From IMG/VR virus record IMGVR_UViG_3300037235_000236, positions 1 to 22,826 of that record: a DNA stretch of 22,826 nt, one strand, 5' to 3'. Origin of the DNA: a virus. The position numbers and the translations under genes are program-made. Positions 431 through 21,429 of this stretch are shown here, piece after piece. The stretch's first letter is position 1; each line of letters opens with the position of its first letter. Under the pieces are notes generated by a model. That model saw only the letters and a program-made list of their open reading frames with translations. It had not been told where the DNA came from and made no database searches.

Positions 431-536
431 TACAACGTCCCCCCAGGTCAGGGTACCTCCCGGGCAACCTGAATAAATGGTTATTTGTCCCCATGGCGCA
501 CACGATCGATACGGAAACCCTCTTATCATGGAGTGC
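431..536. promoter_or_regulatory. Divergent intergenic region; candidate operator and attP location
   Basis: This 106-base gap separates the leftward gene starting at 430 from the rightward integrase. It is AT-richer than its surroundings around 471-490. It holds a dyad with arms AATAA (472-476) and TTATT (481-485), a 5-base inverted repeat CAGGT (444-448) with ACCTG (467-471), and the palindromes GGTACC (452-457) and CCCGGG (459-464). Phage serine integrases often have attP beside the integrase gene, so this is the natural place to look, but no attP can be proven from one window. Promoters for both directions must lie here or in the flanking genes. Confidence 0.4.
524..529 (+). promoter_or_regulatory. 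Candidate -10 element of a leaderless integrase promoter
   Basis: TATCAT at 524-529 fits the actinobacterial TANNNT -10 pattern. Transcription would start about 7 bases downstream, which falls on ATG 537. Neither ATG 528 nor ATG 537 has a well-spaced Shine-Dalgarno sequence: GGAG at 530-533 is only 3 bases from 537. Leaderless messages are common in actinobacteria. No good -35 hexamer is seen 16-18 bases upstream, so confidence is modest. Confidence 0.35.
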
Positions 537-1970
537 ATGACCAGGACCTCCACCCTCGGCGGGGCGCCTCGCTGCGCCGCCGTGTATTGCCGCATCTCCG
601 ACGACCGTGAGGGGCGGGGCCTCGGGGTCGAGCGCCAGGAGCCGGTCTGCCGTCAGCTGGTCGCCGCCAATGGCTGGGTCGTTCACGACGTGTACGTCGA
701 CAATGATGTCAGCGCCTTCAGGGGCAAGCCCCGGCCCGCCTTCGAGCGCATGGTCGAGGACATCAAGGCGGGGCGGGTCAACGCCATCGCCGCTTGGGCG
801 CCGGCCCGGCTGACCCGCCACAACCGTGAGCTCGAGGACCTGATCGATCTTCTCGACGCGAACGATGTCGAGGTGGCTACCCACATCGCAGGCAAGTACG
901 ACCTGTCGTCCTCGGGGGGCCGCCTGGTGGCCCGGGTCGTCGGCGCCGTCGCCCGTCATGAGTCCGAGGAGAAGTCAGAAAGGATCAAGTCGAAGATGGA
1001 GCAGCTGGCGAGCCATGGCTCGTTTCACGGGGGGAAGCGCCCCTACGGTTACGAGGCTGACGGGCGCACCATCCGGCCCGAGGAAGCCGAGAACATCCGG
1101 TTCATGGCCCAGGCCGTCCTCGAGGGCGCCAGTGTGGTGAAGGTCGCCGCCGAGTTGAACGAGCGGGGCGTCCCGGCGGCCCAGGGTGGGGCGTGGACGC
1201 ACTCGAGGGTCCGCGCCCTCTTGGCCCTTCCTCGGCTCGCTGGCCTCCGCATCCACAATGGCGAGGTCGTGGCCGATGCGGGCTGGCCGGCCATCTTGGA
1301 CCGGGCCACCTTCGAGGCCGTGCAGGCGGTCGTGGCCGACCCCAAGCGCCGGCACCGGGGGTACTCGGTGCACTTCCTCACCGGGCTCCTGTACACCCCG
1401 GACGGGCGGCGCCTGGTTGGCAACCGCCAGGTGTACCCGAAGGCGGGGATCGAGAAGGATGCGTACGCGGCCAAGCCGGGCGTGGTCGACGGGCAGCGCC
1501 TGGCCGGCTTGACCATCGAGGCCAGCGCGGTGGAGACGTGGGTGGAGGAGTACGTCCTCGACTACACCGACCGGGTGGCGCTGGCCTCGGGCCCGGCGGT
1601 CCCTCAGCCGTCCACCGAGGTCGTCGACCTCGAGGCGGAACTGGCCGAGTTGGCCGACATGCGGGGCGCCGGCGAGATCAGCTTCGCCGAGTGGCGGGCC
1701 GCCCGAGAAGGCATCAACGTCCGCCTCGAGGCGGCCCGGGCCCGGGTCCCCGAGATGCCCTCGGTGCCACCCACCATGGCGGTCGTTCTCGGCCAGAGGG
1801 GCGAGTTGCGCCGGCGGTGGCCGAGCCTCAACACCCGTCAGCGGCGCCAGGCGCTCGAGGCGGTCCTCGAGCGGGTGATCGTGAAGCCGGTGGGCAAGGG
1901 ATGGGGGAAGGGCATGGCGCGGGGAACCGCTCCCGCTCTGTCCGATCGCCTGGAGGCCGTGCTGCGCTAG
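537..1970 (+). CDS. int: Large serine recombinase, phage integrase
   Basis: Site-specific recombinase that would join attP and attB. Numbering is from ATG 537 (477 aa); ATG 528 adds three residues. The resolvase-type catalytic domain covers about residues 12-150, with the nucleophile Ser21 in VYCRISDD and the helix RLTRHNREL at 91-99. The recombinase domain follows at about 167-280 (KRPYGYEADGR, then VAAELNERGVPAA). The next region begins like a zinc-ribbon domain (LTGLLYTPDGRRLVG) but lacks the expected cysteines: I see none after Cys38. A likely coiled coil lies at 360-405 and a basic tail at 432-465. The length suits large serine integrases. It is the only plus-strand gene, and it implies a temperate life cycle. 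The stop codon TAG overlaps that of the convergent gene. Confidence 0.93.
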   Translation: MTRTSTLGGAPRCAAVYCRISDDREGRGLGVERQEPVCRQLVAANGWVVHDVYVDNDVSAFRGKPRPAFERMVEDIKAGRVNAIAAWAPARLTRHNRELEDLIDLLDANDVEVATHIAGKYDLSSSGGRLVARVVGAVARHESEEKSERIKSKMEQLASHGSFHGGKRPYGYEADGRTIRPEEAENIRFMAQAVLEGASVVKVAAELNERGVPAAQGGAWTHSRVRALLALPRLAGLRIHNGEVVADAGWPAILDRATFEAVQAVVADPKRRHRGYSVHFLTGLLYTPDGRRLVGNRQVYPKAGIEKDAYAAKPGVVDGQRLAGLTIEASAVETWVEEYVLDYTDRVALASGPAVPQPSTEVVDLEAELAELADMRGAGEISFAEWRAAREGINVRLEAARARVPEMPSVPPTMAVVLGQRGELRRRWPSLNTRQRRQALEAVLERVIVKPVGKGWGKGMARGTAPALSDRLEAVLR

Positions 1971-2647: not shown

Positions 2648-2929
2648 CTAGGCGGCCTGCGGGCCGCCTGGCTTGTTTTTGCGGGACGGCTCGGGCGCCG
2701 CCAGGACCCGGTTCAGGCGGTCCTGGGCCTCGGCTGAGGGCTCGGGGGGGATGCGCCCGGCTTCGATGTCCTCGGCCACCCGCCGGCGGGCGTCGGCCCG
2801 GATCTCGTCCTCGGTCATCGCGTCAGCTTCAGCCCGGGGACCGCTGAACATCAACGTCCAACCACTGAACATCGCAGCGCCGATAAGGGCCATTATGTAG
2901 AGGCGGCTGGAAAACGCCCTTTGCGTCAC
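2648..2929 (-). CDS. Small membrane-anchored protein, 93 aa
   Basis: From GTG 2929 this encodes a short N-terminal segment, one hydrophobic helix (about residues 11-29, including IMALIGAAMFSGWTLMF) and a charged cytosolic or external tail (MTEDEIRADARRRVAEDIEAGR onwards) that ends proline- and lysine-rich. ATG 2893, at the start of the helix, is an alternative start. Neither has a clear Shine-Dalgarno site. GTG 2929 sits in the perfect palindrome GTCACGTGAC. It lies downstream of two other small membrane ORFs and a GC-rich hairpin block. Lysis accessory, superinfection exclusion or host-modification roles are possible; nothing in the sequence decides between them. Confidence 0.55.
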   Translation of the reverse strand: MTQRAFSSRLYIMALIGAAMFSGWTLMFSGPRAEADAMTEDEIRADARRRVAEDIEAGRIPPEPSAEAQDRLNRVLAAPEPSRKNKPGGPQAA

Positions 2930-2934
2930 GTGAC
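2925..2934. promoter_or_regulatory. Perfect 10-bp palindrome GTCACGTGAC
   Basis: A perfect dyad at the candidate GTG start of the 93-aa membrane protein, about 24 bases from a strong hairpin. A dyad of this kind could bind a dimeric regulator, or could arise by chance in GC-rich DNA. If bound, it would control the genes reading leftward from 2929. Confidence 0.25.
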
Positions 2935-2957
2935 AAATTTCGGGGTGTAGTGAGGGG

Positions 2958-2990
2958 GGCCGGGCCGGAAGGGGGGGGACCGGCCCGGCC
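2958..2990. terminator. Strong GC hairpin (11-bp stem), terminator-like
   Basis: Arms GGCCGGGCCGG (2958-2968) and CCGGCCCGGCC (2980-2990) pair perfectly around an 11-base loop holding eight consecutive G on the plus strand. No T-run follows on either strand, so it is not a textbook rho-independent terminator, although actinobacterial terminators often lack the T-run. It lies after the 72-aa membrane ORF in the direction of transcription and shares bases 2985-2990 with the next hairpin, so the two cannot form together. Confidence 0.5.
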
Positions 2991-3018
2991 GGGGCCACTT
3001 CCCCACAGCCCCGGCCGG
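2985..3018. terminator. Second GC hairpin (11-bp stem), alternative to the first
   Basis: Arms CCGGCCGGGGC (2985-2995) and GCCCCGGCCGG (3008-3018) pair perfectly around a 12-base loop. On the minus strand it begins four bases after the stop codon of the gene at 3022-3240, a usual place for a terminator. It competes with the 2958-2990 hairpin for bases 2985-2990. Alternating structures of this type are known in attenuators, but no regulatory input is visible here. Confidence 0.5.
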
Positions 3019-3021
3019 ACG

Positions 3022-3240
3022 CTAGTGCTCAGGCGCCCCAGGCGCCTCCACGGCGGCCGCCGTCGCAAGTGGTGGGCTTGGCGCCGGCGGCGGCCCAGCG
3101 AGCCAATCCGGGGGCGCAGCGGGGACGTGGTGGGGTCGCTGCTGAGCTCGTCGCAGCGCGTTGTGCCGCACCTCGTCCCACGCCACGTACAGCCAGCCGA
3201 GGTAGAAGGCGACCGCCAGGGCCAGCGCGGCCCAGCGCAC
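3022..3240 (-). CDS. Small membrane protein, 72 aa
   Basis: GTG 3240 follows directly on the TGA of the preceding 29-aa ORF. The protein has one N-terminal hydrophobic helix (residues 2-20, RWAALALAVAFYLGWLYVAW), then a charged stretch (DEVRHNALRRAQQR) and an alanine- and proline-rich tail. This single-anchor layout is seen in spanin-like, holin-accessory and exclusion proteins, but no specific family motif is visible. Its first residues resemble the 29-aa ORF upstream (RWAALA against KWAAVA), suggesting duplication of a short membrane segment. A strong hairpin follows its stop. Confidence 0.5.
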   Translation of the reverse strand: MRWAALALAVAFYLGWLYVAWDEVRHNALRRAQQRPHHVPAAPPDWLAGPPPAPSPPLATAAAVEAPGAPEH

Positions 3241-3330
3241 TCAGCGCGCCGCTGTCCAGATGATGAACACCGCCGCGGCCCACAGGGCGAGCGAGAAAGC
3301 TGCCGCCCCCGCCACGGCGGCCCACTTCAT
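3241..3330 (-). CDS. Possible 29-aa membrane peptide
   Basis: ATG 3330 opens a 29-codon frame (MKWAAVAGAAAFSLALW to WTAAR) that is one hydrophobic helix with a basic residue at each end, and it stops directly before the GTG of the next gene. The tight junction and membrane composition favour a real gene. Against it, there is no Shine-Dalgarno site, and the start lies 6 bases after a GC-rich hairpin (3337-3377). It resembles the N-terminus of its neighbour. It could be a small holin-like or regulatory peptide, or simply a non-coding stretch. Confidence 0.42.
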   Translation of the reverse strand: MKWAAVAGAAAFSLALWAAAVFIIWTAAR

Positions 3331-3402: not shown

Positions 3403-4533
3403 CTAGTGGTCGTGGTGGTGGTCCACCTCGGCCGTAGTCGTGGTGGGGGCCTCCGTGGTCGTGGTCGCGGGCAGCGTGGTGGCTACCGGCACGGTGGTCG
3501 TGGTGGGGGCGATGGGCTGCTCGGGCACGATGTCGCAGTTGCCTTGGGCGTCAAGCTCGAAGCCCACCGGGCACACGATCACGTCGCAGGACCCGTTGCC
3601 GATGCAGATGTTGCAGTCGTCGGTCCCGAGGGCGTCGTGGTCGCAGACGACGTGGCAGTCGCCCAGGCCGGTGCATGGGCCCTCAGGCGGCAGGGTCGTG
3701 GTGGTGGGGGCCTCCGTGGTCGTCGTGGTCGCCTCCGTGGTGGAGGTGGTCGGCGCCTCGGTGGTGGTCGTCTGCTCGACCGTGGTGGTGGTCTCATGCG
3801 GCAGGGTGCAGATCTGGACCCGGCGGACGATGATGCAGTGGGTCACGGGCACCGGCACCGTGGTGGTGGGGGCCTCGGTGGTCGTGGTGGCCGGCTCCGT
3901 CGTGGTCGTCACGATGGGATGGTCGGGCACGCAGACGACGTGGTCACCGTTGTCACCGTTACCGGGGCCGCCCTGGTCGGGGTGGTCGCCGTTGAACCCG
4001 TGGTCGGGGTGGTCGCCGTTGTTCTCATCAGCGGCCTTCAGCCGGCCGTTGAACAGGTCGAAGCCGTGGTCGGGGTGCTCACCCGGCGGGCAGCTCTGCG
4101 GGTGGCCAGGCAGGGTGCCGACTACCGGCACCGTGGTGGTGGTCGCGATCGGCGGGGTGGGGACGGCCGTGGTCGGCGGCGTGGTGGGCGGCGCTGGCGG
4201 CGTCACCACGATGGCCACGCACACCAGCTGGCGGAAGGTGGCGTCGAACTGGCCTGCCGGCTCCCAGTCGGTGTTATGGCCGGCCCGGTCTTCGACCCAC
4301 GCTCCGGCCGGCGGCATGCCCTTGTGGTAATTGTCCAGCCGGGCCACGTCGCCCTGGAGCGAGGCCATGGAGGCGCAGCGGATGATTATGACTTGGTCGG
4401 CCGGCAGGTTGGCGGCCTGGGTCGGGGGGGAGCTGGCGACGTGGCGAGCTCCAGCCGACGCGGTAGCGGCCATGGTGCCGAGACCGGCTAGGGAGAGGGC
4501 GGCAATTATGGCGCCCATGAACAGTTTCTTCAC
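3403..4533 (-). CDS. Secreted threonine-rich mucin-like protein
   Basis: The 376-aa protein starts at GTG 4533, with AGGAGG six bases upstream. Residues 1-27 are a clear Sec signal peptide (MKKLF, hydrophobic core, ASA cleavage site). A small domain follows (about 45-112, Cys53 and Cys105), then three Thr/Pro/Glu linkers (115-135, 207-230, 247-281) with TTTTEAP-type repeats. Between the linkers are a histidine-rich DHPDHGF repeat area (152-200) and a compact domain with eight Cys (287-333: C287, C293, C297, C307, C310, C316, C321, C333). The C-terminus is DHHHDH, a possible metal-binding end. There is no TM anchor or sortase motif at the end. It lies after the tail fibre and before small membrane genes. 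I infer a secreted or cell-surface protein made during infection or lysogeny; its function is unknown. Confidence 0.8.
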   Translation of the reverse strand: MKKLFMGAIIAALSLAGLGTMAATASAGARHVASSPPTQAANLPADQVIIIRCASMASLQGDVARLDNYHKGMPPAGAWVEDRAGHNTDWEPAGQFDATFRQLVCVAIVVTPPAPPTTPPTTAVPTPPIATTTTVPVVGTLPGHPQSCPPGEHPDHGFDLFNGRLKAADENNGDHPDHGFNGDHPDQGGPGNGDNGDHVVCVPDHPIVTTTTEPATTTTEAPTTTVPVPVTHCIIVRRVQICTLPHETTTTVEQTTTTEAPTTSTTEATTTTTEAPTTTTLPPEGPCTGLGDCHVVCDHDALGTDDCNICIGNGSCDVIVCPVGFELDAQGNCDIVPEQPIAPTTTTVPVATTLPATTTTEAPTTTTAEVDHHHDH

Positions 4534-4629
4534 TCGGTTCCTCCTCGATTCGAGTGTCGGGGAACTGAGGGCGCCGGGTTGAGGCTACTCGGCGGGGGTG
4601 GCCCGGTTACAGGTCCAAAATGGGCCGCT
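4534..4629. other. 96-base gap between tail fibre and secreted-protein genes
   Basis: This is one of the few gaps in an otherwise overlapping operon. It carries the strong AGGAGG of the downstream gene and a short dyad (CTCG, three bases, CGAG) beside it. I see no convincing -10 or -35 pair and no T-run terminator. Independent expression of the secreted protein is possible but not shown. Confidence 0.4.
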
Positions 4630-6258
4630 CTAGCCGAAGAGGAACATGTTGGTCCGGGTGGCGCCCCCGCCGGGGCCTACGATCCGCATCCCGGCCAAGC
4701 CCTGGTAGGGGGCGCTGTTGGGGGTGACGAGGGAGATCGAGGTATCGCTCACCACGGTGAAGTTGGGCGCCGCCACCTCGTCGCCCCCGCCGAAGGTAAA
4801 GAAGACGGCGGTGACGCCCGTGAGGTTGGAGCCCGGGAAGGCGGTGGTGAGGCCACCCGAGGTCGATCCGCTCACCGGGGAGCACGGGCCGGTGATGACG
4901 GGCGGGTTCCGGTACTCGGGCTTCTCCAAAGGCCACGTCATGGTGTCGAGGAACAGGTAGGTGAAGCCGGTGGCGCCCGGGAAGTCTTGCACCTCGGAGA
5001 ACAGCATCAACTCACCCGTGGGTTGCATCAAGACGTAGACCGTCACCCGGCCCTGGTTCACGTTGTAGCCCGAGAGGAGGGCCATGCAGGGCTGGATGCT
5101 GGGCGCCCCGGCGTAGTCGGCCAAGCCCCGGGCGATGAAGGTGTTGGGCGGCCAGCCGGTGCGGGTGATGTAACCGGAGAAGCGCACGAAGCCGTGGTGC
5201 TTGCAGATGAGCACGGGGTTGGCCGGGTCGGCGGATACCCACGTCGGCTCCAAGGCGAGCGGGCGCCAAGCCGGGTAGTCGTCCACGTTGGTCGAACCCG
5301 TCGGCCCGGTCGGGCCTCGGGCGCCGTCGATGCCTTGGGGGCCGCGCTCGCCCTCGGGGCCGGTGTCGCCTTGGGGGCCGGTGGCGCCTTGGATGCCCAC
5401 GGGGCCGATGGGGCCTTCCGGCCCGGTCGGCCCGATGATGGTGAGCGGCGCCCAGGCGATCCCGCCGTCGTTGCCGGGCTCCACCCCGGGGGGCACCTCG
5501 CCCCGGCCGTACCAGACCTGGCCCACGTGGGTCACGCAATCGTTGGGCGCGTAGAAGCGGCCCGTCTGCCAGTCGCCTTGGTAGGTGAGCCCGCCCACGG
5601 GGCCGGTGGGGCCTTCGGGACCTTCGGGGCCGGGGTCGCCCTGGGGGCCGGGCGGGCCGGTAGGCCCTGTGTCCCCCGGAGGGCCGGGCACGGTGGAGTC
5701 GGCGCCGGGGGCGCCCTCGGGCCCGGGGAAGCCTTGGGCGCCGCGGTCACCGATGGGGCCGAGCGGCCCGGTGGGGCCTGCGGGGCCTACGGGGCCAGGG
5801 GCGCCGGTCGGGCCCTGCACCCCGGGCGGGCCGACCAGGCCGCGCTCGCCGGGTGGGCCTTCTGGCCCAGTGGGGCCGTCCGGGCCGGGGGGGCCGCGCA
5901 CCCCGCCGTCGACCTCGATCCACCCCGGCACGGGCTCGGCCATGTTGGCTGGCCCCGTGAAGACCCATAGGTTGCCGGTGGGCTTGTAGACCAGGCTCCA
6001 GCCGTACTCGAGGCGGGCTTCCACGCTGGGCACGCCGGGGGCGTCCCAGTCGGCCTCTATGAGCCCGTCGGGCGGGAGCTCGTCGGGCCGGCGGTTCTCG
6101 AACTCCATGAAGATGCGCGTCGAGCTGCCGGGCAGGCCGCGAGGGCCGGCGGCGCCGTCGCGCCCGGGCGGGCCCATGGTGCCGGCCAGCAAGGCCACGT
6201 CGACCTTGGCGACGTCGGGCAGCGGGACGCTGACTTCGGCGAAGGTGCCCTCGCTCAT
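4630..6258 (-). CDS. Collagen-like tail fibre with IPT/TIG C-terminus
   Basis: This 542-aa protein starts at ATG 6258, overlapping the previous stop as ATGA. Three Gly-X-Y collagen-like blocks (about 29-45, 122-222, 276-321) are rich in GPTGP, GPPGP and GPEGP triplets and would form trimeric rods. Between blocks two and three, residues 225-272 ([17 protein letters not shown], then a W near 269) look like a CBM5/12-type carbohydrate-binding module. Residues 325-450 form a globular region of unknown fold. Residues 452-542 resemble an IPT/TIG Ig-like domain ([17 protein letters not shown] to [10 protein letters not shown]). Such fibres bind host surface sugars. It is the last gene of the tail and lysis block, so a receptor-binding role is likely but inferred. 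Confidence 0.85.
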
Positions 6259-6590
6259 GCCGGCACCGTCACCCGTGACTCGACGGCCAGGCGCCCCTTC
6301 AGCACCGCGTAGCCCTCGCCGGCGCCGGGGTGGCGCCCGTAGACGTCGAAGCGCCACCACTGGCCGGGCAGGCCGATCGAGTCATAGCCGCGCAGGTAGA
6401 CCGTGACCCCGTCGTCCTCCGGAAGGCACTCGAGCGCCGTGGGCGGGCCCGTGCCTACCCATGCCTGCCAGCTCCAGTCGGCCACGTCGGCGGGCTGGCC
6501 GTCGTAGGTGAGGTGGACCCGCAGCGAGGCCGGGGTCCCCTCGTAGGTGCGCCACTCGCAGCTGGCCGGGCGCACGTCGATAACGGTCAT
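6255..6590 (-). CDS. Small baseplate or tail-associated protein, 111 aa
   Basis: ATG 6590 overlaps the previous gene's TGA as ATGA, with GGGAGG five bases upstream. The sequence is beta-rich with many tryptophans; [15 protein letters not shown] followed by DWSWQAWVG resembles the N-terminal domain found in siphovirus upper-baseplate (BppU/DUF2479-type) proteins and in fibre adaptors. It sits directly before the collagen-like fibre and overlaps it by 4 bases, which supports a role in attaching the fibre. The family match is tentative. There is no signal peptide or membrane helix. Confidence 0.6.
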
Positions 6591-6844
6591 TGGGTCCTCC
6601 CGTAGGGCGGTGGTGGCGGCATCTCGTCGGGCGGCTGGTGGTCGTCGTGGTGGTTCCCGTCCCGGGTCCCCAGGTAGGTGGCCAAGGCGCCCACGGCGGC
6701 CCCCAGCACGGTCGAGATAAGCGTTGACTCCTCAGCAGAAACCGCCCCTTCATGGACGGCGGCGCCCACCGCCACGGCGACGATGGCGAGCGCGATCCCG
6801 AGGGCCAGGACGAGGGCGGTGAGAGCTCGAGGGTCGGTGGGCAT
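6587..6844 (-). CDS. Holin-like membrane protein, 85 aa
   Basis: ATG 6844 overlaps the amidase stop by one base (TGATG). Two hydrophobic helices (about 8-31 and 42-59) are joined by a short polar turn (HEGAVSAEES). A charged tail follows, with His/Asp (DGNHHDDHQ) and a polyproline stretch (PPPPP near the end). Two helices, small size and position immediately after the endolysin fit a class II holin, which would permeabilise the inner membrane and release the amidase. Holins are too diverse to name by motif, so the call rests on layout and context. Confidence 0.7.
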   Translation of the reverse strand: MPTDPRALTALVLALGIALAIVAVAVGAAVHEGAVSAEESTLISTVLGAAVGALATYLGTRDGNHHDDHQPPDEMPPPPPYGRTQ

Positions 6845-7575
6845 CAGGCGGCGGCGCCCACCCGCCATAGGCCCAGCCATTCGCCGTTGGGGTCGTCGAT
6901 GACCCAGGCCGCCGGGATGCGGCCCGCGGCGCCGGCCGGGATCGAGCGCCAGTAGCTCTGCGGCCCGCTGAAGATCAATTGGTACACGGTGTTTTTGTTG
7001 CGGATGAACACAGTTCCCTCCGGAGGTTTGGCCGGCGGCGCCGGCGTGGTGGGTGGTTGGGGCGCCGGGGCGCTCGAGGCGGGCATGCCCGCCTGCACCC
7101 AGGCGATGACGTCGGGGCCGGCGCAGGCGGTGGCGTAGTACTTGCCGTGCCAGCCCCGCTCGAGCGTGCGGCCGGTGGCCCGGTTGAGCTCGTCGTACAG
7201 GGCGCGGCCGCTGTTCTTGGCCGCCTGGGAGAACGCCTGGACGCCCATCCGGGGCGCGTGGCCACCTTGGAGGAAGCACACCCCGAAGCCGTCGGTGTTG
7301 CGGCCGGGGCAGTGGACGCCTTGGACGTCGCGCCCGCAGCCCTCGTAGATGGTCCCGCTCATGCCGATCAGGAAGTTGTAGCCCGGGCGGGCCGACCAGC
7401 CCTGGTTGGCGTGCTGCTGCTCGATCGAGCGCACCGTGGCCATCTCGTTGGTCACGGCGCCGGCGGCGGCCGGGTAGTGGGCCACGTAAAAGCGCCTCGA
7501 GCTGAGCGCCACGCGGTTGGAGCTGCGCCCGAACCGGGCGCCCCATTGCTCGCGGGTGACGATGGTTAGTGCCAC
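6844..7575 (-). CDS. Endolysin, N-acetylmuramoyl-L-alanine amidase (PGRP type)
   Basis: Cleaves the amide bond between MurNAc and the stem peptide to lyse the host. The 243-aa protein starts at GTG 7575, next to the previous TAA. The Amidase_2/PGRP fold spans about 5-160: the REQWGARFG opening, probable zinc ligands His33 (YVAHYP), His143 (WHGKYY) and Cys151 (TACAGP), Tyr66 in PGYNFLIG, and HCPGRNTDGFGVC at 88-100. A proline-rich linker (167-186) joins a C-terminal domain (187-243, FIRNKNTVYQLIF) that is probably a wall-binding module of a type I do not recognise. There is no signal peptide, so export should rely on the holin encoded next. Confidence 0.92.
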   Translation of the reverse strand: MALTIVTREQWGARFGRSSNRVALSSRRFYVAHYPAAAGAVTNEMATVRSIEQQHANQGWSARPGYNFLIGMSGTIYEGCGRDVQGVHCPGRNTDGFGVCFLQGGHAPRMGVQAFSQAAKNSGRALYDELNRATGRTLERGWHGKYYATACAGPDVIAWVQAGMPASSAPAPQPPTTPAPPAKPPEGTVFIRNKNTVYQLIFSGPQSYWRSIPAGAAGRIPAAWVIDDPNGEWLGLWRVGAAA

Positions 7576-8118: not shown

Positions 8119-9012
8119 TCAGTTTTGGATACCGGCGTCGGTGATCTCGATGCGGGCTGTCCAGACCGGGAAGCGGACGGCCACGCCCGGGGTGCCCACC
8201 GTCGGGAAGGCGGGGATGAAGTGGTTGGCGATGATGAAGATCTGGGTGTTGTCCGAGGGCACCAGGAACGAGGCGAAGCCCGAGCGCAGCTGGTTCACCT
8301 GGCTGAAGATGTCGCACATGGCCCGGCGCCGCACCTCGACCTGATCGGCGAAGCGGATGGCCCGCAGCTCGACCCGGAGGATGCCGGCGTCCCCGGCCAC
8401 CTGGTGGGCGTCCATGAAGCTGGCCACCACCCGGTAGGTGCGCCCGGGGGCGTAGCCCGGCACCCAGTCGGTGAAGGCGAACATGACCGTCCCGCCGTGG
8501 CCCACGTCGATGGCGGCGGCTAGCGCCTCGGCCCGGGTCTGGCCCTTGGGCACCCAGGCTGGGATCTCGGGCAGGCCCGGCACCACCTCGTTGGACACCA
8601 AGTAGCGCCGGTCGACCCACCCGGTGGGGAATATCTCGTAGAGCGGGATCTCGAACACGCCGTGGGCGGCGTGGGGGTCGGAGTGCCACCCGTGCCAGGC
8701 TTCGAAGAAGACGCTCATGGTCTGGGCGCCCGAGTCCACCCGCACCTTGACCATGCCGTCGTCGCCGGGCGTAGCCACGTCGGACCAGTTGTAGCGCTCC
8801 CCGTAGAAGCCGTTGACCCAGGCCCCGCCGCCCCCGATGAGGAGGCGCCCGGGGTCGCGCTGGACCACGCCGAACTCACCGAAGGGGTGGCGCGAGACCA
8901 CGCCCCAGTGGCACCAAAGGTTCGCCATCTTGCGCCACCGGGTCATGTTGACCGAGCGGGTGAGCACGCCCTCGGGCTCATCAAAGGGCCAGAAGGCGTC
9001 CATGTTGCTCAT
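8119..9012 (-). CDS. Minor tail protein, paralog 3 of 3
   Basis: This 297-aa protein starts at ATG 9012, overlapping the previous TGA as ATGA. Its N-terminus carries the module shared by the three tandem genes: FWPF near residue 7, WRKMANLW with a following GVV, then GGAWVNGFYGE. A later IPAWVPKG motif is also in paralog 2. The C-terminal half is a separate beta-rich domain (VMFAFTDWVPGYAPGRTYRVV and onwards) unlike those of its siblings. Such proteins are annotated as minor tail proteins in actinobacteriophages and probably form receptor-binding or fibre structures at the tail tip. The exact partner is unknown. Confidence 0.78.
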   Translation of the reverse strand: MSNMDAFWPFDEPEGVLTRSVNMTRWRKMANLWCHWGVVSRHPFGEFGVVQRDPGRLLIGGGGAWVNGFYGERYNWSDVATPGDDGMVKVRVDSGAQTMSVFFEAWHGWHSDPHAAHGVFEIPLYEIFPTGWVDRRYLVSNEVVPGLPEIPAWVPKGQTRAEALAAAIDVGHGGTVMFAFTDWVPGYAPGRTYRVVASFMDAHQVAGDAGILRVELRAIRFADQVEVRRRAMCDIFSQVNQLRSGFASFLVPSDNTQIFIIANHFIPAFPTVGTPGVAVRFPVWTARIEITDAGIQN

Positions 9013-9950
9013 GCCCCGGCGTCCTCGCACGAGAGCACCAGCGAGCCCACCGGGAAGCGCACCACGTGGCCGGCGTTGTTGATGGTGATGCGGAGCCCGG
9101 CGGCCAGGTTGCCGTGGGCGTTGCCGATGGTCACGCTGCCCGCGAAGGGGTTGCCCACGAGGGACGAGCCCTGGGCCGACTGGTTCCACCGGAGCAGCAT
9201 CTCGTTGTAGATGAGGCCCCGGTCGTCTTGCACGAAGAAGGTCAGCTGGAAGTCGGGCTGGCCCGAGCCGTCCTGCCAGCGCTCGGGGGCGGCCAGCCCG
9301 GTGAGGCGGTAGGACCGGCCCGGGATGAAGTAGTGGGTGGAGGCCGGGTAGATGACGAGGAGGTCGGTCGTGCTTGGCCCGCCCACGTCCCACGTGCCCG
9401 CCGGGCCGAAGGCCCAACCCCACGCCCCTTGGGGCAGCATGCCCCGGGGCACCCACGCCGGGATGGCGGGCAGCTGGGGGGTGAGGTCGGGGAGGGGGAC
9501 CAGGCGGCGCAGGTCGGCAATGGACCCGTCGGTGTTCATCTGCGCCAGCGGTACCTCCCACCACCCGGCCGGGTCGCGGATGAGGTCGGTGGGGCCGCTG
9601 CCCACCTTGTAGACGATGGAGATCAGCTGGGCCACGGGGTCGTAGCGGGCGCACACCAGGCCCCAGTCGGGCGGCGCCCCCACCTGCAGCACCTTGGCCG
9701 TGTCGTTCTGGCCGTAGAAGCCGTTGACCCAGCACGCCCCCGGGGCGATCGAGCAGGCCCCGCTGTTCCAGTCCCACCCGTAGGCCGAGAGGGGGAAGCG
9801 CTCGGAGGGCATGAACGAGATATCGGGGTGGACCACGCCGTCGGCGCACCACAGCTGGGCCATCTTGCGCCAGTTGTCCATGGTCGAGTGGTTGCCCGGG
9901 GGCGCCTCGAAGGGGAAGAAGTCCTCCATGGGCACGTTCACCACGCTCAC
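9009..9950 (-). CDS. Minor tail protein, paralog 2 of 3
   Basis: This 313-aa protein starts at GTG 9950, overlapping the previous stop as GTGA; ATG 9929 (MEDFFPF) is an alternative start, but coupling favours GTG. The shared module is clear: DFFPF, WRKMAQLW, GVV, then GACWVNGFYGQ. IPAWVPRG marks the start of the second half, which has beta-rich sequence with TTDLLVIYP, YRLTGLAAPERW and LRITINNAGHVVRFPVG. It probably acts at the receptor end of the tail with its paralogs. The divergent second half suggests that the three copies recognise different ligands or build a hetero-oligomer. Confidence 0.78.
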   Translation of the reverse strand: MSVVNVPMEDFFPFEAPPGNHSTMDNWRKMAQLWCADGVVHPDISFMPSERFPLSAYGWDWNSGACSIAPGACWVNGFYGQNDTAKVLQVGAPPDWGLVCARYDPVAQLISIVYKVGSGPTDLIRDPAGWWEVPLAQMNTDGSIADLRRLVPLPDLTPQLPAIPAWVPRGMLPQGAWGWAFGPAGTWDVGGPSTTDLLVIYPASTHYFIPGRSYRLTGLAAPERWQDGSGQPDFQLTFFVQDDRGLIYNEMLLRWNQSAQGSSLVGNPFAGSVTIGNAHGNLAAGLRITINNAGHVVRFPVGSLVLSCEDAGA

Positions 9951-10864
9951 CAGTCGGCCCCTATCTCTTCGGCCTCGATGCGCAGGCACCCGGCCGCGTA
10001 GGCCCACGCCCCGCCGGCCTGGGTGGCCTCGACGCGCTGCTCGAAGGCGGCCACCAAGTCGCCCCAGCAGTTCGGGCACACGAAGGTGATGACCTTGGCC
10101 TCCAGCCGGACCACCCCGGCCTGGGTCGAGCCCGTTTGGGGGCCGCCCATCTTGAAGCGCATGCGCACGCCGGTCTGGTCGCGCACAAAGGCGAAGAGGG
10201 TGCCGGCGTAGCCCCACCCGTTGGTGGAGGTGGCGTTCCAGTTGTCCTGGCGCATGTCGAAGGTGAAGCGGTAGTGGCGGGGGGCCACATAATCGGGCCG
10301 CCAGCCGAGGTACATGACCATGGGGTTGCCCCCGTCGCCGCCGGTCCACCCGACGTCAAGCTCCTGCGCCGTCACGATGCGCCCGGGCACGTGGGGCGGG
10401 ATCACGGTGATGGGCGGGGGCGGCGCCGGCTCGGGCACGTAGCGGCGGCGGTCGGTCACGGTGCCGAAGCCGCTCAGCTCCCAGAGGTTCATCTGCGTGC
10501 CGCCGCTGGGGTCGGACCAGTCGCCCCCGTGGTAGCCGGGCTGGAACTCCAACCGGACGTGCCCGGCGGTGGGGTCCATGACGGCCACGACCATGCCGTC
10601 GTCGCCGGGGGCCGAGAGCCACAGGTGGCGGTAGGGGTCGAGGCCCATCTCGCCGTAGGCGCAAGTCGCCCATACGGCCCCCGAGCCGATCGAGACCATG
10701 CCGGGCTCGACCCAGCCGTTGAAGTGGAACTGGTCGCCGACGTCGCGCACCACCCCGCTGCGGTTCGACCAGATGGAGGCCATGCGCCGCCAGCGAGCGA
10801 AGTCGGCGCCGGCCCCCGGCCCCTCGGCCATGGGCCAGTAGTGGTCCATCTCTACGGTGCTCAT
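9947..10864 (-). CDS. Minor tail protein, paralog 1 of 3
   Basis: This 305-aa protein starts at ATG 10864, overlapping the stop of the Gp37-like gene as ATGA. The shared N-terminal module appears as HYWPM, WRRMASIW, GVV and a diverged GAVWATCAYGE. A GDDGM motif after it is also in paralog 3. The middle has a proline-rich hinge (PEPAPPPPITVIPP), and the C-terminal domain carries YRFTFDMRQDNWNAT and FVCPNCWGDL, a CPNC pair that could bind metal. It is the first of three tandem relatives and is probably attached to the tail-tip hub encoded just before it. Confidence 0.78.
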   Translation of the reverse strand: MSTVEMDHYWPMAEGPGAGADFARWRRMASIWSNRSGVVRDVGDQFHFNGWVEPGMVSIGSGAVWATCAYGEMGLDPYRHLWLSAPGDDGMVVAVMDPTAGHVRLEFQPGYHGGDWSDPSGGTQMNLWELSGFGTVTDRRRYVPEPAPPPPITVIPPHVPGRIVTAQELDVGWTGGDGGNPMVMYLGWRPDYVAPRHYRFTFDMRQDNWNATSTNGWGYAGTLFAFVRDQTGVRMRFKMGGPQTGSTQAGVVRLEAKVITFVCPNCWGDLVAAFEQRVEATQAGGAWAYAAGCLRIEAEEIGADW

Positions 10865-12120: not shown

Positions 12121-12998
12121 GGCGTCAGGTACCGGAGGCGCCAGCGCAGCTGGATGCGGGCGGTGGTGGTCTCGTAGGTCACCCGCAGGAGGTTGAGCCC
12201 CGGCGCCAGGCCCCACAGCACCGAGTCACGGGAGAGGTGGCTGAACCAGTTTGCGCCCCCGTAGCTCACGGCCCGGGCGCCGGGCAGGGTCACGATGCGC
12301 AGGATGGCGCCGGCGGCCACGACGCCCGAGATGGCCATGCGCTGGCCGGTGGTGAGGTTCTGAAAGATGAAGTTCTCGCCCGGCCCGCCCACGTCGATGG
12401 TGGGCCACGCCTCGGCGTCCCCGCCGTTGGTTATCGAGAAGTTGCCCAGGATGTTGGTGCCGCCGAGGTCGAGGGGGAAGAAGGGGAACCACTCGGTGTC
12501 CACGTTGGCGGGGGCGAAGTCGCGGACCTGTTCGGTCTGGTCGACCCAGTAGGGGTCGGGCGCCCGGAACTGCAGCGCCACCCGGGAGAAGTTGGGGAAC
12601 TCCTCCTTCAGCGCGTCGAGCCCGGCCTGGTAGACGCAGTTGAGCTCGCGCCCGGTGCCGCCCGAGCTGAAACCCACGCTGCGCAGGCGCCCCATGCCCC
12701 GGGCGGGGTCGAGGGCGCGGGCCAGGGCGCGCAGCTCGGGGCGGCCATGGCGCAGGCCGCCGCTGATGATGGGGATGACCACGGTCCGGGCGGCGTGGCG
12801 GCTGCCCCGGTAGCGGGAGCCAGGCGTGAGAGGCACCACGTCCTCCCAGATGTCGACGGGCGGCATCATGCGCCCGGTCGTGCCGCGCTCGACGGTGAAG
12901 CGCACCGACAGCCCGTCGCCGGCGACGTACTCCAGGAGCTCGGCCTCGTCGGTGGCCCACAGGTCGGGGATCTCAGCCCCGGGGCCGGGGGTGCTCAT
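12117..12998 (-). CDS. Distal tail protein (Dit-like)
   Basis: This 293-aa protein starts at ATG 12998, overlapping the tape-measure stop as ATGA. It fits the siphovirus distal tail protein layout: an N-terminal beta domain with a belt-like region (RGSRHAARTVVIPIISGG, then ALARALDPARGMGRL), a CVYQAGLDAL segment, FSRVALQFRAPDPYWVD, and a C-terminal galectin-like beta domain (FSITNGGDAEAWPTIDVGG to LRWRLRYL). Dit forms the hexameric ring at the tube end that carries hub and receptor-binding proteins. The position between the tape measure and the Gp37-like hub supports the call. The C-terminal ITNGGDAEAWPTI pattern is common in Dit proteins. Confidence 0.85.
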   Translation of the reverse strand: MSTPGPGAEIPDLWATDEAELLEYVAGDGLSVRFTVERGTTGRMMPPVDIWEDVVPLTPGSRYRGSRHAARTVVIPIISGGLRHGRPELRALARALDPARGMGRLRSVGFSSGGTGRELNCVYQAGLDALKEEFPNFSRVALQFRAPDPYWVDQTEQVRDFAPANVDTEWFPFFPLDLGGTNILGNFSITNGGDAEAWPTIDVGGPGENFIFQNLTTGQRMAISGVVAAGAILRIVTLPGARAVSYGGANWFSHLSRDSVLWGLAPGLNLLRVTYETTTARIQLRWRLRYLTP

Positions 12999-15900
12999 GC
13001 GGCCCCGCTCAACAGCTCGAGGCGCCTGAAGCCGGCCTGAAGTTGGCTGGTGTCGGCCTCGGCCACGTGCATCTCCAGGGTGTAGTTGCCGCCGCCGGCG
13101 TAGGCCCCGCCGAGCTCGCCAGCCATGGCGCTGCCCACGGCGCCGAAGTCGTAGACCCGGGCGCCAATGCCGGCGTTGGCCGCCTCGGCCATGTTCTCAG
13201 CCGCCGCCACCACCAGCGGGGTGGCCCGGACGATGCCCTCGGCCAGCTGGGTAGCGATCGAGATGCCCGAGTACACGGGCTGGCCCTTGCCGGCGAAGGG
13301 GCTGGTCGGGTCCTTGGGGGGCGAGAAGGGGAGGAGCCGCTTGAGCCCGTCGAGCAGGCCCTTCATCTTGTTCATGATCCAGCCGCGCATGGCCTCGATG
13401 CCGTCCCACAGGCCCCGGATCACGTTCTTGCCCGCGTTGACCAGCCAGGCCCGGGCGTTGCCGATGGAATTCCACACCCACGGCCCGATCTTGATGGTGC
13501 CCTGGAGCCAGCCCTTCATGGAGCTGATCCCGTTCCACAGGCCTCGGATGATGTCCTGGCCCTTGCCCCGCAGCCAGCCCTGGGCGTCCCCGATGGCCCC
13601 GGTCACCCAGCCCCCGATCTTGCGGACGATGTCGCCCACCCACCCGCTGGCGGCCCGCATCCCGTTGGTGAGCCCGCCGATCACCTTGCGCCCGGACTCG
13701 AGGAGCAGGCCCCCGGCGTCCCCGAGGGCGCCCTTTATCTTGCCGGGCAACGTCTTGGCCACATCGGTGACCCACTTGGAGGCGTCCCGCATGCCGTTGG
13801 AGAGCCCTCCCAGCATCTGGCTGCCCATCTCGGTGAGGGAGCCCTTCAGGCCTCCGAGGGCGCCGGTGATCTGGGCCGGCAGGTCCTTCAGCTTGTTGGC
13901 CAGCTGGCCCCCGAGCCCGGAGATGGAGCTCGTCACGCTGCCCAGCGCGCCCCCGACCGTGTCCTTGACCTTGTCGGCCATGTCGCCCAGGGCGCCTACC
14001 ATGCGGCCGGGCAGGCCCTTCACCGTGTCGACGACGTCGTCCATGGCCCGCTTGACTTGGCCGGGCAGCTTCTCCAGGCCCGAGAGGTCCGGGACGATCT
14101 GCTTGCCGAGGTCGCCCAGGGCGCCGATCATCTGGCCGGGGAGCTTCTTGAAGAAGTCGATGGCGTCGGAGCCGATGTCGCTCAACTTGCCGGTCAGGGA
14201 CTTGAAGGCGTCCCGGGCCCACGAGATAAGCCTTTGGCCGAGGTCGAGCGCTGAGGTTACGCGTTGTATGAGCTTGGCCGGGAGGGCGGCGAACCAGTCG
14301 AGGGTGGCCTTGGCCACTTTGCCGAGGTTCCCGGCCACGAAGCCCCACGCCGCACTGACCTTGTCGAGGATCTTCTGGCCCAGCCCGGCGATGCCCCCGG
14401 CGAACTTCTCGGGGAGGGCGGCGAACCAGCTGATCACCTTGCTGGCGGCGCCCTCGATGCCGCCCGAGACCACGTCCCAGGCCGTGCGCACCCAGCCGAG
14501 GAGCTTGCCGCCGAGGTCGCCTAGGCCGGCGACGATGCGGCCGGGCAGCCCCTTGAACCACTCCACGATCTTGTCGACCACTTTGAGGATGTCGTCGCGG
14601 AAGTGCCAAATGGCGGCCAGGATCGGGCCGCCGGGCACGAAGATCGCCACCATGATCGTGGCGATCAGCTCCCAGTGGTCTTTGATCCAGTCGATTACCC
14701 CGGAAATGGCGCCCTTGATGAAGTCGAAGGCGGCCAGAAAACCGTCCTTCACCGCGTTGACCCCCGAGAGCAGGGCGTCCCACACGGTGGACGCCACCGA
14801 CTTCACGGTGTCGAAGTTCTTGACCAGGAGCACGATGGCGGCTATCACGGCCACGATGGCGATGGCCACCAGCACGAAGGGGTTGGCCGCCATGACCAGG
14901 TTCACGGCCAGCATCACCACCTTGAAGATGGCCAGGGTGGCGTTCATGACCACCTGGATCGCGTGCCAGGCCGACATGGCCACGTTGACCGCCAGGGTGG
15001 CGGCCGCCTGCACCGCCATGGCCCCGGCCACCACCCCGATCGCCACACCCAGGGCGATCATGAGCGGCTTGCACTTGGTGACCCAGCCGATGACGCTGCC
15101 GATCAGGGTGGCGAACTTGGACAGGTAGGGCGTCACGAACATGAGCGCCCCGGTGATGGCGTCGAACAGGCCCATGGCCACGGGCTCGAACGCCACCTTC
15201 ATCTGGTTCTTGAACTTGGCCATCTTCCCGCTGAAGGTGGCCGTCTCCCCGGCCGTGCTCTTGAGCGCCCCCTCGCTGTCGCCCAGCGCCCCGACCAGCT
15301 CCTCCATGGAGATGGTCCCGGCCCGGATGGCCTCGGCTAGTTGGGGGCCGGCCTTGCCCCCGAAGACGGAGATGGCCTCCTGGTTGGCCTGGGCGGCGTC
15401 CCCGGTGTTCTTGATCGACTCCACGGTCTCGGCCAGGAACTCGGCCGGGCTCTGCTCCTGCATGTGCTTGAAGGCGTCGTTCATCTCCTCGTAGTTCTTG
15501 ATGGCGTCTTCGAGGTTTTTCTTGTTCTCCGGGCTAGGTTTTTTGTCCTGGAGGGCTTGGAACTTCTCGATCTGCTTGCCCGCGTTGTCGACCGCCTTGC
15601 CCTGCCGCTCGACCATCTTCTGCTGGTTCTTCAGGGCGGCGTTGAGGGCGGCGGTGGCCGTGGTGGTGTTCAGGCCGGCCTTGTCGAAGGTGGCCAGCAG
15701 GGCGATGGACTCGTCGAAGCTGAAGTTGAACTGGCGCATGATCGGCCCCGACTTCTCCGCTGCGGCCATGAGGGCGTCGACCCCGATGCCGCTCTTGGAG
15801 CTGGCCGTGTAGAGCTTGTCCAGGTACTTGGGCATGTCGGCCGTCTCGATCTTCCAGCCGTTGAACAGGCCCGTGGCCTTCTCGATGTTCGAGTTGAGGT

Positions 15901-16396
15901 CGGTCCCGGTCACCGACGAGAGGCGCAGCATCTGCAGCGACAGGTCCTCCAGGTCTTTGCCCGTGGCGCCGGTGCGTTGGGAGACGCTGGCCACCGCGCT
16001 CGAGATGTCCTCGAAGCTGGCCCCGGTCTGGGTGGCCACGTTCTTGAAGCTGCCCTTCAGGGCGTCGAGGTCCTTGCCCGTGGCCCCCGTTTGCTTCTGA
16101 ATTCCCTTGTAGGTCTTGTCGAAATCGGACCCCAGGTTGAACAGGGCCACGCCGGCGGCGGCCGCCCCGCCCACGATCCCGGCCGTTAGTGGTGAAAGCA
16201 CCCCGCCGCCCTTGCCCACCGAGGACGTGACTTTGCCCAGGGCGCCTTGGATGTTGCCGCCGAGGAGGTCGCCCAGGGCGCCGCCGAGTTTGCTGAAGGT
16301 CCCCTTCAGGTCGGAGCCGAGCCCACCGAGGGACTTCTTCAGCCCCTCGGTGTCGGGCAGGAGGGCGACGACGCCCTTGATGATGGGGTCGGCCAC
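12995..16396 (-). CDS. Tape measure protein, 1133 aa
   Basis: Sets tail length and is ejected during infection. GTG 16396 has GGGAGG six bases upstream. The N-terminal part (about 85-260) matches the phage minor tail (TP901 tape-measure) domain: SVSQRTGATGKDLEDL, SKSGIGVDALMAAAEKSG and GLNTTTATAALNAALKNQ. A helical charged section (255-330) follows, then a hydrophobic block with several membrane-like helices (about 443-525 and 575-596). Residues 615-1003 are a tandem repeat with a 44-residue period. The C-terminus has the familiar FSPPKDPTSPFAGKG. At about 1.5 angstrom per residue the tail would be near 170 nm, an inference from the usual rule. No peptidase or lysozyme motif was recognised inside it. 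Confidence 0.95.
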   Translation of the reverse strand: MADPIIKGVVALLPDTEGLKKSLGGLGSDLKGTFSKLGGALGDLLGGNIQGALGKVTSSVGKGGGVLSPLTAGIVGGAAAAGVALFNLGSDFDKTYKGIQKQTGATGKDLDALKGSFKNVATQTGASFEDISSAVASVSQRTGATGKDLEDLSLQMLRLSSVTGTDLNSNIEKATGLFNGWKIETADMPKYLDKLYTASSKSGIGVDALMAAAEKSGPIMRQFNFSFDESIALLATFDKAGLNTTTATAALNAALKNQQKMVERQGKAVDNAGKQIEKFQALQDKKPSPENKKNLEDAIKNYEEMNDAFKHMQEQSPAEFLAETVESIKNTGDAAQANQEAISVFGGKAGPQLAEAIRAGTISMEELVGALGDSEGALKSTAGETATFSGKMAKFKNQMKVAFEPVAMGLFDAITGALMFVTPYLSKFATLIGSVIGWVTKCKPLMIALGVAIGVVAGAMAVQAAATLAVNVAMSAWHAIQVVMNATLAIFKVVMLAVNLVMAANPFVLVAIAIVAVIAAIVLLVKNFDTVKSVASTVWDALLSGVNAVKDGFLAAFDFIKGAISGVIDWIKDHWELIATIMVAIFVPGGPILAAIWHFRDDILKVVDKIVEWFKGLPGRIVAGLGDLGGKLLGWVRTAWDVVSGGIEGAASKVISWFAALPEKFAGGIAGLGQKILDKVSAAWGFVAGNLGKVAKATLDWFAALPAKLIQRVTSALDLGQRLISWARDAFKSLTGKLSDIGSDAIDFFKKLPGQMIGALGDLGKQIVPDLSGLEKLPGQVKRAMDDVVDTVKGLPGRMVGALGDMADKVKDTVGGALGSVTSSISGLGGQLANKLKDLPAQITGALGGLKGSLTEMGSQMLGGLSNGMRDASKWVTDVAKTLPGKIKGALGDAGGLLLESGRKVIGGLTNGMRAASGWVGDIVRKIGGWVTGAIGDAQGWLRGKGQDIIRGLWNGISSMKGWLQGTIKIGPWVWNSIGNARAWLVNAGKNVIRGLWDGIEAMRGWIMNKMKGLLDGLKRLLPFSPPKDPTSPFAGKGQPVYSGISIATQLAEGIVRATPLVVAAAENMAEAANAGIGARVYDFGAVGSAMAGELGGAYAGGGNYTLEMHVAEADTSQLQAGFRRLELLSGAA
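13390..14550 (-). repeat. 132-base (44-codon) periodic repeat in the tape measure gene
   Basis: LP-centred motifs (for example FKGLPGRIVAGLGD, FAALPEKF, LPGKIKGALGD) start at residues 617, 661, 705, 752, 795, 839 and 883, spacings of 44, 44, 47, 43, 44 and 44. A GL.NGM..AS.WV motif recurs at 865, 909, 953 and 996. Aromatic residues keep similar phases. The units are diverged, so this is old duplication, not recent slippage. Confidence 0.8.
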
Positions 16397-16397
16397 C

Positions 16398-16721
16398 TCA
16401 GCCCTCCCGGCCCGTCATGTCGATGAGCTCGCCGATCGCCACCCGTCGGCGGCGGGGCGAATCATATGTTTCGGGGGCGTCCCGCCAGGGCCGGGGCAGC
16501 CGCAGCGGGCGGGGCGGCGTGCTGCCCTTCTTGGAGTTGACCTGGAGCGTGAGGCGCCACAGGGCGTGGACCATCTCGGCCGTGACCGCCTGGACCTCAA
16601 GCGCCCACAGCGCGGCCGTGCGCTCGCGCTGGGCTAGCTCCCACATGCGCTCCATGAGCTCGTCGTCGCACTCGAGCAGGGCGCCGGGAGCCAGCCTCAG
16701 GGCCACGGCCACCTCGGCCAC
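16398..16721 (-). CDS. Tail assembly chaperone, second frame (GT-like)
   Basis: This 107-aa frame starts at GTG 16721, overlapping the previous TAG by one base (TAGTG). It has helical sequence (LLECDDELMERMWELAQRER, then ALWALEVQAVTAEMVHALW) and a basic proline-rich end. A frame just before the tape measure that overlaps the preceding small gene is the hallmark of the tail assembly chaperone pair, lambda gpG/gpT type. Normally the second frame is made as a fusion by programmed -1 frameshifting. It lies in the -1 frame of its partner, open back to about 16780, but I find no canonical slippery heptamer. Separate initiation at GTG 16721 is therefore also possible. Confidence 0.7.
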   Translation of the reverse strand: MAEVAVALRLAPGALLECDDELMERMWELAQRERTAALWALEVQAVTAEMVHALWRLTLQVNSKKGSTPPRPLRLPRPWRDAPETYDSPRRRRVAIGELIDMTGREG

Positions 16722-17014
16722 TACTCCGGCGCTGGCGGTTCGGTAGGGTGCGTGCCGTTGGAGCTGGGCGGCTCGGCCTCCTCAGCGGCGAAGTGGACCG
16801 AGTCGAACCATTCCTCGAGCACGGGGTCGGACGGGGGCCAGCTCTGCTCGTGGGCCAGGTAGTAGGCCATGGTGGCGGCGTCGGCGATCGACCCCGTCTC
16901 GTAGGTCCGCTTGAAGCGCCGTTCGAACTTGATCATGGTGCTCTTCAGCACGGGCAGGCGCGTGACTGTGCCCTCCTCGTCGGTCAGGACGAGGATCGAC
17001 TCTGCGATCGCCAC
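16721..17014 (-). CDS. Tail assembly chaperone, first frame (G-like)
   Basis: This 97-aa protein starts at GTG 17014 (VAIAESILVLTDEEG), just after the major tail protein stop. It has a small alpha/beta body (LPVLKSTMIKFERRFKRTYE, then ADAATMAYYLAHEQSWP, VLEEWFDSV) and an acidic, proline-rich end. Size, order and the overlapping partner fit the G protein of siphophages, which keeps the tape measure soluble until tail tube polymerisation. It is not expected in the mature virion. No clear Shine-Dalgarno site precedes the GTG, so coupling to the upstream gene is likely. Confidence 0.75.
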   Translation of the reverse strand: MAIAESILVLTDEEGTVTRLPVLKSTMIKFERRFKRTYETGSIADAATMAYYLAHEQSWPPSDPVLEEWFDSVHFAAEEAEPPSSNGTHPTEPPAPE

Positions 17015-17019
17015 GGCGG

Positions 17020-17883
17020 CTACGCGTAGGTGAAGCCGTTGGGCAGCGTGCCCGGGGCCAGAGCGCCCGGGTTGGTCACCTCGACAGCGACGGAGCCCGT
17101 GCCGGCCGGCACCGTGCAGGTGGCCGCGGTGGCACTGGTGCGCACCACGTTCGTGGCGCTGGCGGAGCCGAAACGGACGGTCATGTTGGCAGCGAAGTTG
17201 GTGCCGGCCAGGGCCACCGGGTCGCCGGGGTCGCCGGTGTCGGGCGTCACCGACGTGATCGTGGGGTTGGGCGGCGGCGCCGCGCCCCCGTCGGTTTCGC
17301 CCAGCATGGCGGCGTTGGCCTGCCACCAGAAGGTGTTGGGCTCGGCCGCCAGCACCGTGAAGGTGAGGGGGAACACCAGGCCGGCCGTGTTGACGAGCGT
17401 GAACTCGACCGCCTCGGAGACCATGGTGCGCCGGCCAAAGAAGCGGGCTTTCTTGGCCCCGTCCTCGAACTCGACCGAGACCATGCGCTCGTCGATGAAC
17501 GAGCTCGGCGCCGGCTCGAACTCGAAGCCGTCCTGGGCGTTGCCCGACCACTCGCCGCCACCCAGGGCCAGCCTCAGGTTCTCTTTGTTGAACTGGCGCA
17601 GCGACCCGGCCACCGTCTTGGGCCGGCCGGTGGTGAGCATGCGCACGGGGTCGAGGGACTGGCTGGTCATCAGGGTGTCGGTGTCCAGGCCGAACGAGAA
17701 CGTGATGCCGTCCTCGGTGGTGTAGCCGAGGTCGTACCAGTCGGTGCCGTACTCGGTGTCGATGCCGGTGGGCGGCAGGGTGCCGGTCGGGGCCACCAGC
17801 AGGCGCTGGAAACCGGCGACCACCACCTCCTCGCCGGATAGGCCGCCGGTGGCGGCGCGGGGGGCAGCTTCGGTGACAGTCAT
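17020..17883 (-). CDS. Major tail protein with C-terminal Ig-like (IPT/TIG) domain
   Basis: Forms the tail tube. This 287-aa protein starts at ATG 17883 with AAGGAG six bases upstream, one of the strongest sites in the window, fitting high expression. The tube domain covers about 15-190, with YGTDWYDLGYTTEDGITF and a beta-strand-rich core. After a Gly/Pro linker (199-207), residues 207-287 form a complete IPT/TIG-like domain (PTITSVTPDTGDPGDPVAL to NPGALAPGTLPNGFTYA). Ig-like domains appended to tube proteins project from the tail surface and are thought to help weak contact with the host. Another IPT/TIG domain ends the tail fibre. Position between terminator and chaperones supports the call. 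Confidence 0.92.
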   Translation of the reverse strand: MTVTEAAPRAATGGLSGEEVVVAGFQRLLVAPTGTLPPTGIDTEYGTDWYDLGYTTEDGITFSFGLDTDTLMTSQSLDPVRMLTTGRPKTVAGSLRQFNKENLRLALGGGEWSGNAQDGFEFEPAPSSFIDERMVSVEFEDGAKKARFFGRRTMVSEAVEFTLVNTAGLVFPLTFTVLAAEPNTFWWQANAAMLGETDGGAAPPPNPTITSVTPDTGDPGDPVALAGTNFAANMTVRFGSASATNVVRTSATAATCTVPAGTGSVAVEVTNPGALAPGTLPNGFTYA

Positions 17884-17893
17884 AAGGGGCTCC

Positions 17894-20746: not shown

Positions 20747-20861
20747 GGCGATACCTCCAAAAGTGGACGACGGGACTCTGAGCTTCCCGGCGTGCTCTCA
20801 GTGGCATCGCCAGCGCCCTTGCGGGCCGGTCAGCCCCGCGAAGGCTGCCGCGGTGGGGATG
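20747..20861. promoter_or_regulatory. 115-base leader of the major capsid gene
   Basis: This is the largest gap in the head operon, where other genes overlap. It contains the GGAGGT site (20753-20758) and short stems: CTGAG (20778-20782) with CTCAG (20797-20801), and GCGGG (20821-20825) with CCCGC (20835-20839). Such leaders can raise capsid expression through a promoter or message processing. I see no convincing -10 and -35 pair. Confidence 0.4.
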
Positions 20862-21425: not shown

Positions 21426-21429
21426 CTGG

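Follow-up and report, generated by a model that had tools for sequence, protein, structure and literature searches.

Gene content of the window

The window (the whole stretch of DNA analysed, 22,826 bp) is a complete IMG/VR record and represents a fragment of a siphovirus-like phage. Gene order on the minus strand starts with the portal gene, followed by head genes, including a major capsid gene (matching annotated capsids, of Arthrobacter phages among others, at ~33%), and by tail genes. Gene roles for which no family is cited were assigned from sequence and gene order. The relevant features are:

22826-22182, minus strand: portal gene
20746-19751, minus strand: major capsid gene
16396-12995, minus strand: tape measure gene, among the tail genes
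8119-10864, minus strand: three tandem genes for related tail proteins
6844-7575, minus strand: endolysin, N-acetylmuramoyl-L-alanine amidase (Amidase_2)
6590-6844, after the amidase in minus-strand order: holin-like protein
4630-6285, minus strand: tail-fibre protein, collagen-like, with a TIG-like domain at the C-terminus; its gene immediately precedes the secreted-protein gene
4540-4546, minus strand: Shine-Dalgarno sequence GAGGAGG, spaced 6 nt from the GTG start
3403-4533, minus strand: secreted modular protein of 376 aa, GTG start, stop codon at 3405-3403
3241-3330, minus strand: hydrophobic single-span peptide of 29 aa, directly upstream of the 72-aa protein
3022-3240, minus strand: single-span membrane protein of 72 aa (VRWAALALA..AWDEVRHN)
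2648-2998, minus strand: protein of 116 aa whose N-terminal segment is hydrophobic; judging by its sequence, probably membrane-bound or exported
477-1970, plus strand: large serine integrase (Resolvase and Recombinase)

The three tandem tail proteins (298-309 residues) share 28-36% mutual identity and a common WR(K/R)MA motif, and are probably diversified tail-tip or receptor-binding proteins. Independent contigs with 99.85-99.95% identity cover positions 12364-22826; for the part of the window that holds the secreted-protein gene, no second independent contig was found. A contig of the same phage continues beyond the right end of the window with a ParB/methyltransferase-like fusion, TerS and TerL. 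The fusion, as read from a sequence of the same phage population (L008:316-1623), appears to combine a DNA methyltransferase with a ParB-like domain and lies immediately upstream of TerS. Rfam and tRNA scans found nothing.

The open frame at 3403-4533 is a genuine, phage-borne gene. Its GC content by codon position (0.64/0.56/0.91) resembles that of the neighbouring genes for the collagen-like protein, the amidase and the capsid, which indicates coding sequence rather than a chance open frame. The gene lies outside the core modules, between the lysis genes and the integrase, separated by a 96-base gap from the collagen-like fibre gene on the same strand. With the secreted-protein gene, the row of 29-, 72- and 116-aa hydrophobic proteins (2648-3330, minus strand) makes up an envelope-directed block before the integrase; a 211-aa protein lies between the small membrane proteins and the integrase. 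In temperate phages of Gram-positive hosts, lysogenic-conversion genes come after the tail and lysis genes and ahead of the integrase (gene order 'tail, lysis, lysogenic conversion', PMC3952083), and by analogy the secreted-protein gene sits in the lysogenic-conversion position. A scan limited to the sigma-70 consensus detected no promoter-like site for it. Given the late-gene strand and the lack of such a site, transcription may be late and not in the lysogen.

Signal peptide and modular organization

The 376-aa product is composed of the following parts (all minus strand):

4453-4533: Sec signal peptide, residues 1-27 (rule-based; cleavage between 25 and 29, AxA present)
4198-4452: N-terminal domain, residues 28-112, with Cys53 and Cys105
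4093-4197: Pro/Thr-rich linker 1, residues 113-147
3931-4092: Cys148-Cys201 segment, rich in Asp, His, Gly and Asn (EHPDHGF, DHPDHGF, DHPDQ)
3838-3918: Thr-rich linker 2, residues 206-232
3808-3837: short Cys233-Cys242 element, CIIVRRVQIC
3676-3798: Thr-rich linker 3, long, with TTTTEAP, residues 246-286
3535-3675: eight-Cys domain, residues 287-333
3424-3522: Thr-rich linker 4, residues 338-370
3406-3423: DHHHDH end (tail VDHHHDH)

The signal peptide, VKKLFMGAIIAALSLAGLGTMAATASA followed by GA, is of the n/h/c type and begins at a credible start codon. A scan for charge, hydrophobicity and AxA that also required a Shine-Dalgarno sequence returned this gene as the sole match in the window, bearing out the signal peptide proposed in the sequence-only reading. 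No lipobox Cys was visible at the cleavage region, the first Cys being residue 53, and the search for a further membrane segment was negative (hydropathy of 19-residue windows outside the signal peptide reached 1.37 at most). The product is thus probably exported by the Sec pathway, and the presence of a signal peptide with no second membrane segment suggests that the mature protein (36 kDa, pI 4.5) is soluble.

The DHPDHGF repeat area, the eight-Cys domain and the DHHHDH end described previously were all present, the DHPDHGF repeats lying inside the Cys148-Cys201 segment, where direct repeats are visible at the DNA level. The TTTTEAP-type linkers were likewise found, but there are four Thr-rich linkers, with four TTTTEAP copies, instead of the three reported. 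The 14 Cys fall into even groups of 2+2+2+8 (residues 53, 105, 148, 201, 233 and 242, and eight in 287-333). An even Cys count in each module is consistent with disulfides formed outside the cytoplasm. AlphaFold2 models of the N-terminal and eight-Cys domains were of low confidence (pLDDT 62-63), and Foldseek found no significant fold match with either model.

Search for relatives

No relative of the 376-aa protein was detected in Pfam (up to E 1), among 38,880 PHROG families (E<=0.1) or, by sequence, in the PDB, and the whole protein had no match in phage records. As the sequence-only reading had advised, the two domains were searched separately. Among 2.9 million viral contigs the N-terminal domain had no relative, while the eight-Cys domain had one, in a sister phage (L002/L006). 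A DNA motif for DCHVVCD recovered the sister from viral contigs together with unrelated matches. The Cys domain had no match in PLSDB plasmids, and a pattern-limited search of 84,980 bacterial and archaeal species genomes with the Cys domain or the portal found no relative.

Among related phages, 48 records (portal ~40-66% identical) contained no convincing relative; since these records are mostly fragments, this absence is only suggestive. The single weak match, between residues 63-110 and the L024 tail assembly chaperone (E 0.003), was at chance level. It was rejected, as 60 trials with shuffled N-terminal domains gave values down to 0.008, a profile of the chaperone did no better than 0.12, and none of the PHROG chaperone families matched. 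Amidase and collagen C-terminus, used as baits for the left ends of sister phages, found none. The probably secreted protein is ordinary in kind and, as a sequence family, new, an orphan.

A related cassette in a sister phage

The sister gene (L002/L006:5-325) lies on a 9,114-bp contig and is unannotated. Its eight-Cys domain is 83% identical to that of the window phage at the amino acid level and 84.5% at the DNA level, and the last linker is similar. All eight Cys of the domain are conserved, and 27 of the 50 differences fall at third codon positions. By comparison, identity between the two phages is 64% for the capsid protein and 65% for the portal protein, and ~70% for these genes in DNA. 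In both phages the gene is followed by a homologous single-span membrane protein with AWDE-RHN. The C-termini differ: the sister ends in PPCDQHQYGCQPKGH, a different tail with two more Cys and without DHHHDH. The location also differs, as the sister gene is directly upstream of TerS whereas the window gene follows the lysis and collagen genes. Note that the sister contig ends before the signal-peptide region would be reached and carries a TAG at its second to fourth bases, just before the Cys domain, reflecting either a contig-edge error or a shortened gene.

A cassette of higher similarity than the structural genes, found in a different place, fits exchange, or strong constraint plus movement, better than it fits a core virion gene. 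The distribution is sporadic, with one relative at a differing position on the TerS side and none convincing in the 48 related records. We infer that the gene belongs to an accessory cassette exchanged between phages.

Alternative explanations

The sequence-only reading held that the protein is secreted or displayed by the cell and is not part of the virion. This is partly supported: the Sec features, the modular build and the lack of likeness to any known virion protein favour it. The premise that virion proteins carry no signal peptide holds as a general rule and is not proof. A virion-associated adhesin, exported or released at lysis and attaching to particles or to the upstream collagen-like fibre, is unlikely but is the best placed of the alternatives. 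The gene is directly downstream of the fibre gene on the same strand, with the 96-base gap, and linkers with small Cys modules would be in keeping with a binding module carried on a fibre. Against this stand the Sec signal peptide, the lack of a match among the PHROG families, the absence of a relative from the 48 related records, where structural genes persist, and the sister cassette, which adjoins TerS instead of following a fibre gene. Close homologues with a proven structural role in virions, named earlier as the finding that would count against secretion, were looked for; the sole homologue is the unannotated sister gene beside the terminase.

It is rather less likely that this is a late-expressed envelope protein aiding lysis or release with the adjoining small membrane proteins. 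The gene does follow the amidase and the holin-like protein (6590-6844), and two or three small membrane proteins come after it. However, it has no enzymatic domain, the collagen-like gene intervenes between it and the lysis genes, and the sister carries the gene pair beside the terminase.

Extracellular uptake of zinc, nickel or copper by the Asp/His repeats, the Cys domain and the DHHHDH tail, suggested by composition, appears improbable. Whereas the 19 His, the acidic mature pI of 4.5, the DHPDHGF repeats and the DHHHDH end would be compatible with metal binding, the sister lacks the DHHHDH tail, an even number of Cys in an exported protein suggests disulfides, and Fer4 matches were far under the cut-off.

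More doubtful still is a recently captured host gene, or host DNA at a prophage edge. TTTT/EAP linkers occur in secreted actinobacterial proteins, and the sequence-only reading had taken them to hint at an Acidimicrobiia host and gene capture. Neither proposal found support, since no relatives of the Cys domain or the portal were present in the 84,980 species genomes (pattern-limited search). The gene, moreover, is located between the late genes and the integrase, with phage genes adjoining it in two phages. Finally, it is extremely unlikely that repetitive GC-rich DNA produced the open frame as an artefact; low-complexity repeats and long plus-strand frames could suggest this, but the ribosome site, the third-position GC content and the coding-type change relative to the sister argue against it.

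A probable accessory surface or secreted protein

Taken together, export, position and sporadic distribution are best read as those of an accessory protein that is secreted or displayed at the surface. We consider it fairly probable that the phage carries the gene as an accessory of the moron type, placed in the lysogenic-conversion position, and that its product is exported and acts outside the membrane. The host Sec machinery would export the product, with removal of the signal peptide, and outside the membrane it would fold as a series of small modules, each stabilised by disulfides, with extended Thr/Pro linkers between them. In Sec-secreted actinobacterial proteins Thr or Ser can carry O-mannose, and a phiC31 receptor of Streptomyces is an O-mannosylated glycoprotein (PMC12757957). 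The Thr/Pro linkers may therefore be glycosylated, and in an actinobacterial host they would probably be O-mannosylated. The mature protein would then either remain on the surface of the cell or be released from it. Its likeliest job would be to alter how the surface of the carrier cell interacts with the outside, presumably with expression in the lysogen.

Within the accessory reading, superinfection exclusion ranks first, by binding or masking of a receptor or by catching an incoming tail; this is a guess that we hold tentatively. Adhesion or matrix binding ranks second and is a weaker guess. A bolder proposal, to which we give low credence, is that the eight-Cys/Thr-linker protein and the AWDE-RHN membrane protein form an exchangeable, phage-specific pair, by which actinobacterial phages would bring about surface exclusion or adhesion; such a device would so far have gone unrecognised, and its small Cys domain would be new.

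Many temperate phages alter the host surface in other ways, and accessory genes with such effects are poorly known outside well-studied host groups. Being an orphan family with clear anatomy and signs of exchange between two related phages, this one offers something concrete to test for superinfection or surface effects in an actinobacterial host. If it is only a secreted orphan, it is one among many such phage genes.

Comparison with known systems and with secreted proteins of related phages

By functional analogy, the Ltp lipoproteins (PMC3952083) and gp41 of Cutibacterium acnes phages (PMC11480721) come closest to the window protein. Like the Ltp-type superinfection-exclusion lipoprotein of phage TP-J34, it is phage-encoded and predicted to be exported, has folded modules on a low-complexity spacer and is encoded near an integrase (PMC3952083). 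The spacer is Ser-rich in TP-J34 Ltp (PMC3952083) and Thr-rich in the window protein. In contrast to Ltp, the window protein lacks a lipobox and a detectable Ltp repeat domain (no Pfam match up to E 1), its modules are of the disulfide type, and its gene lies outside the lysogeny module, on the strand of the late genes. No sequence relation was detected, and by sequence the window protein is not a member of the Ltp lipoproteins. The C. acnes gp41, an actinobacterial-phage protein with a signal peptide, a disordered region and an extracytoplasmic domain, has been proposed to act in superinfection resistance (PMC11480721). It shares with the window protein the plan of a signal peptide, a flexible region and outer domain(s), but it is membrane-targeted, has a predicted cystatin-like domain, and is described with neither Thr linkers nor an eight-Cys domain (PMC11480721).

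Ten related phage records were scanned for secreted proteins. A distantly related phage (portal 41% identical) encodes a 591-aa protein with a signal peptide and a TTT-rich linker (L073:16920-18692). Like the window protein, it combines a signal peptide with a Thr-rich linker and is the product of an accessory gene among phage genes. It differs in its length, in showing no sequence similarity and in being encoded between capsid-side and tail genes. On our own reading of its sequence, the large C-terminal part looks beta-helical. Another record (L102) encodes several secreted proteins with no sequence relation to the window protein, one of which (L102:13944-14786) may be a DUF1996 protein. The occurrence of unrelated secreted proteins in some related phages suggests that secreted accessories are not unusual in this clade and are different each time.
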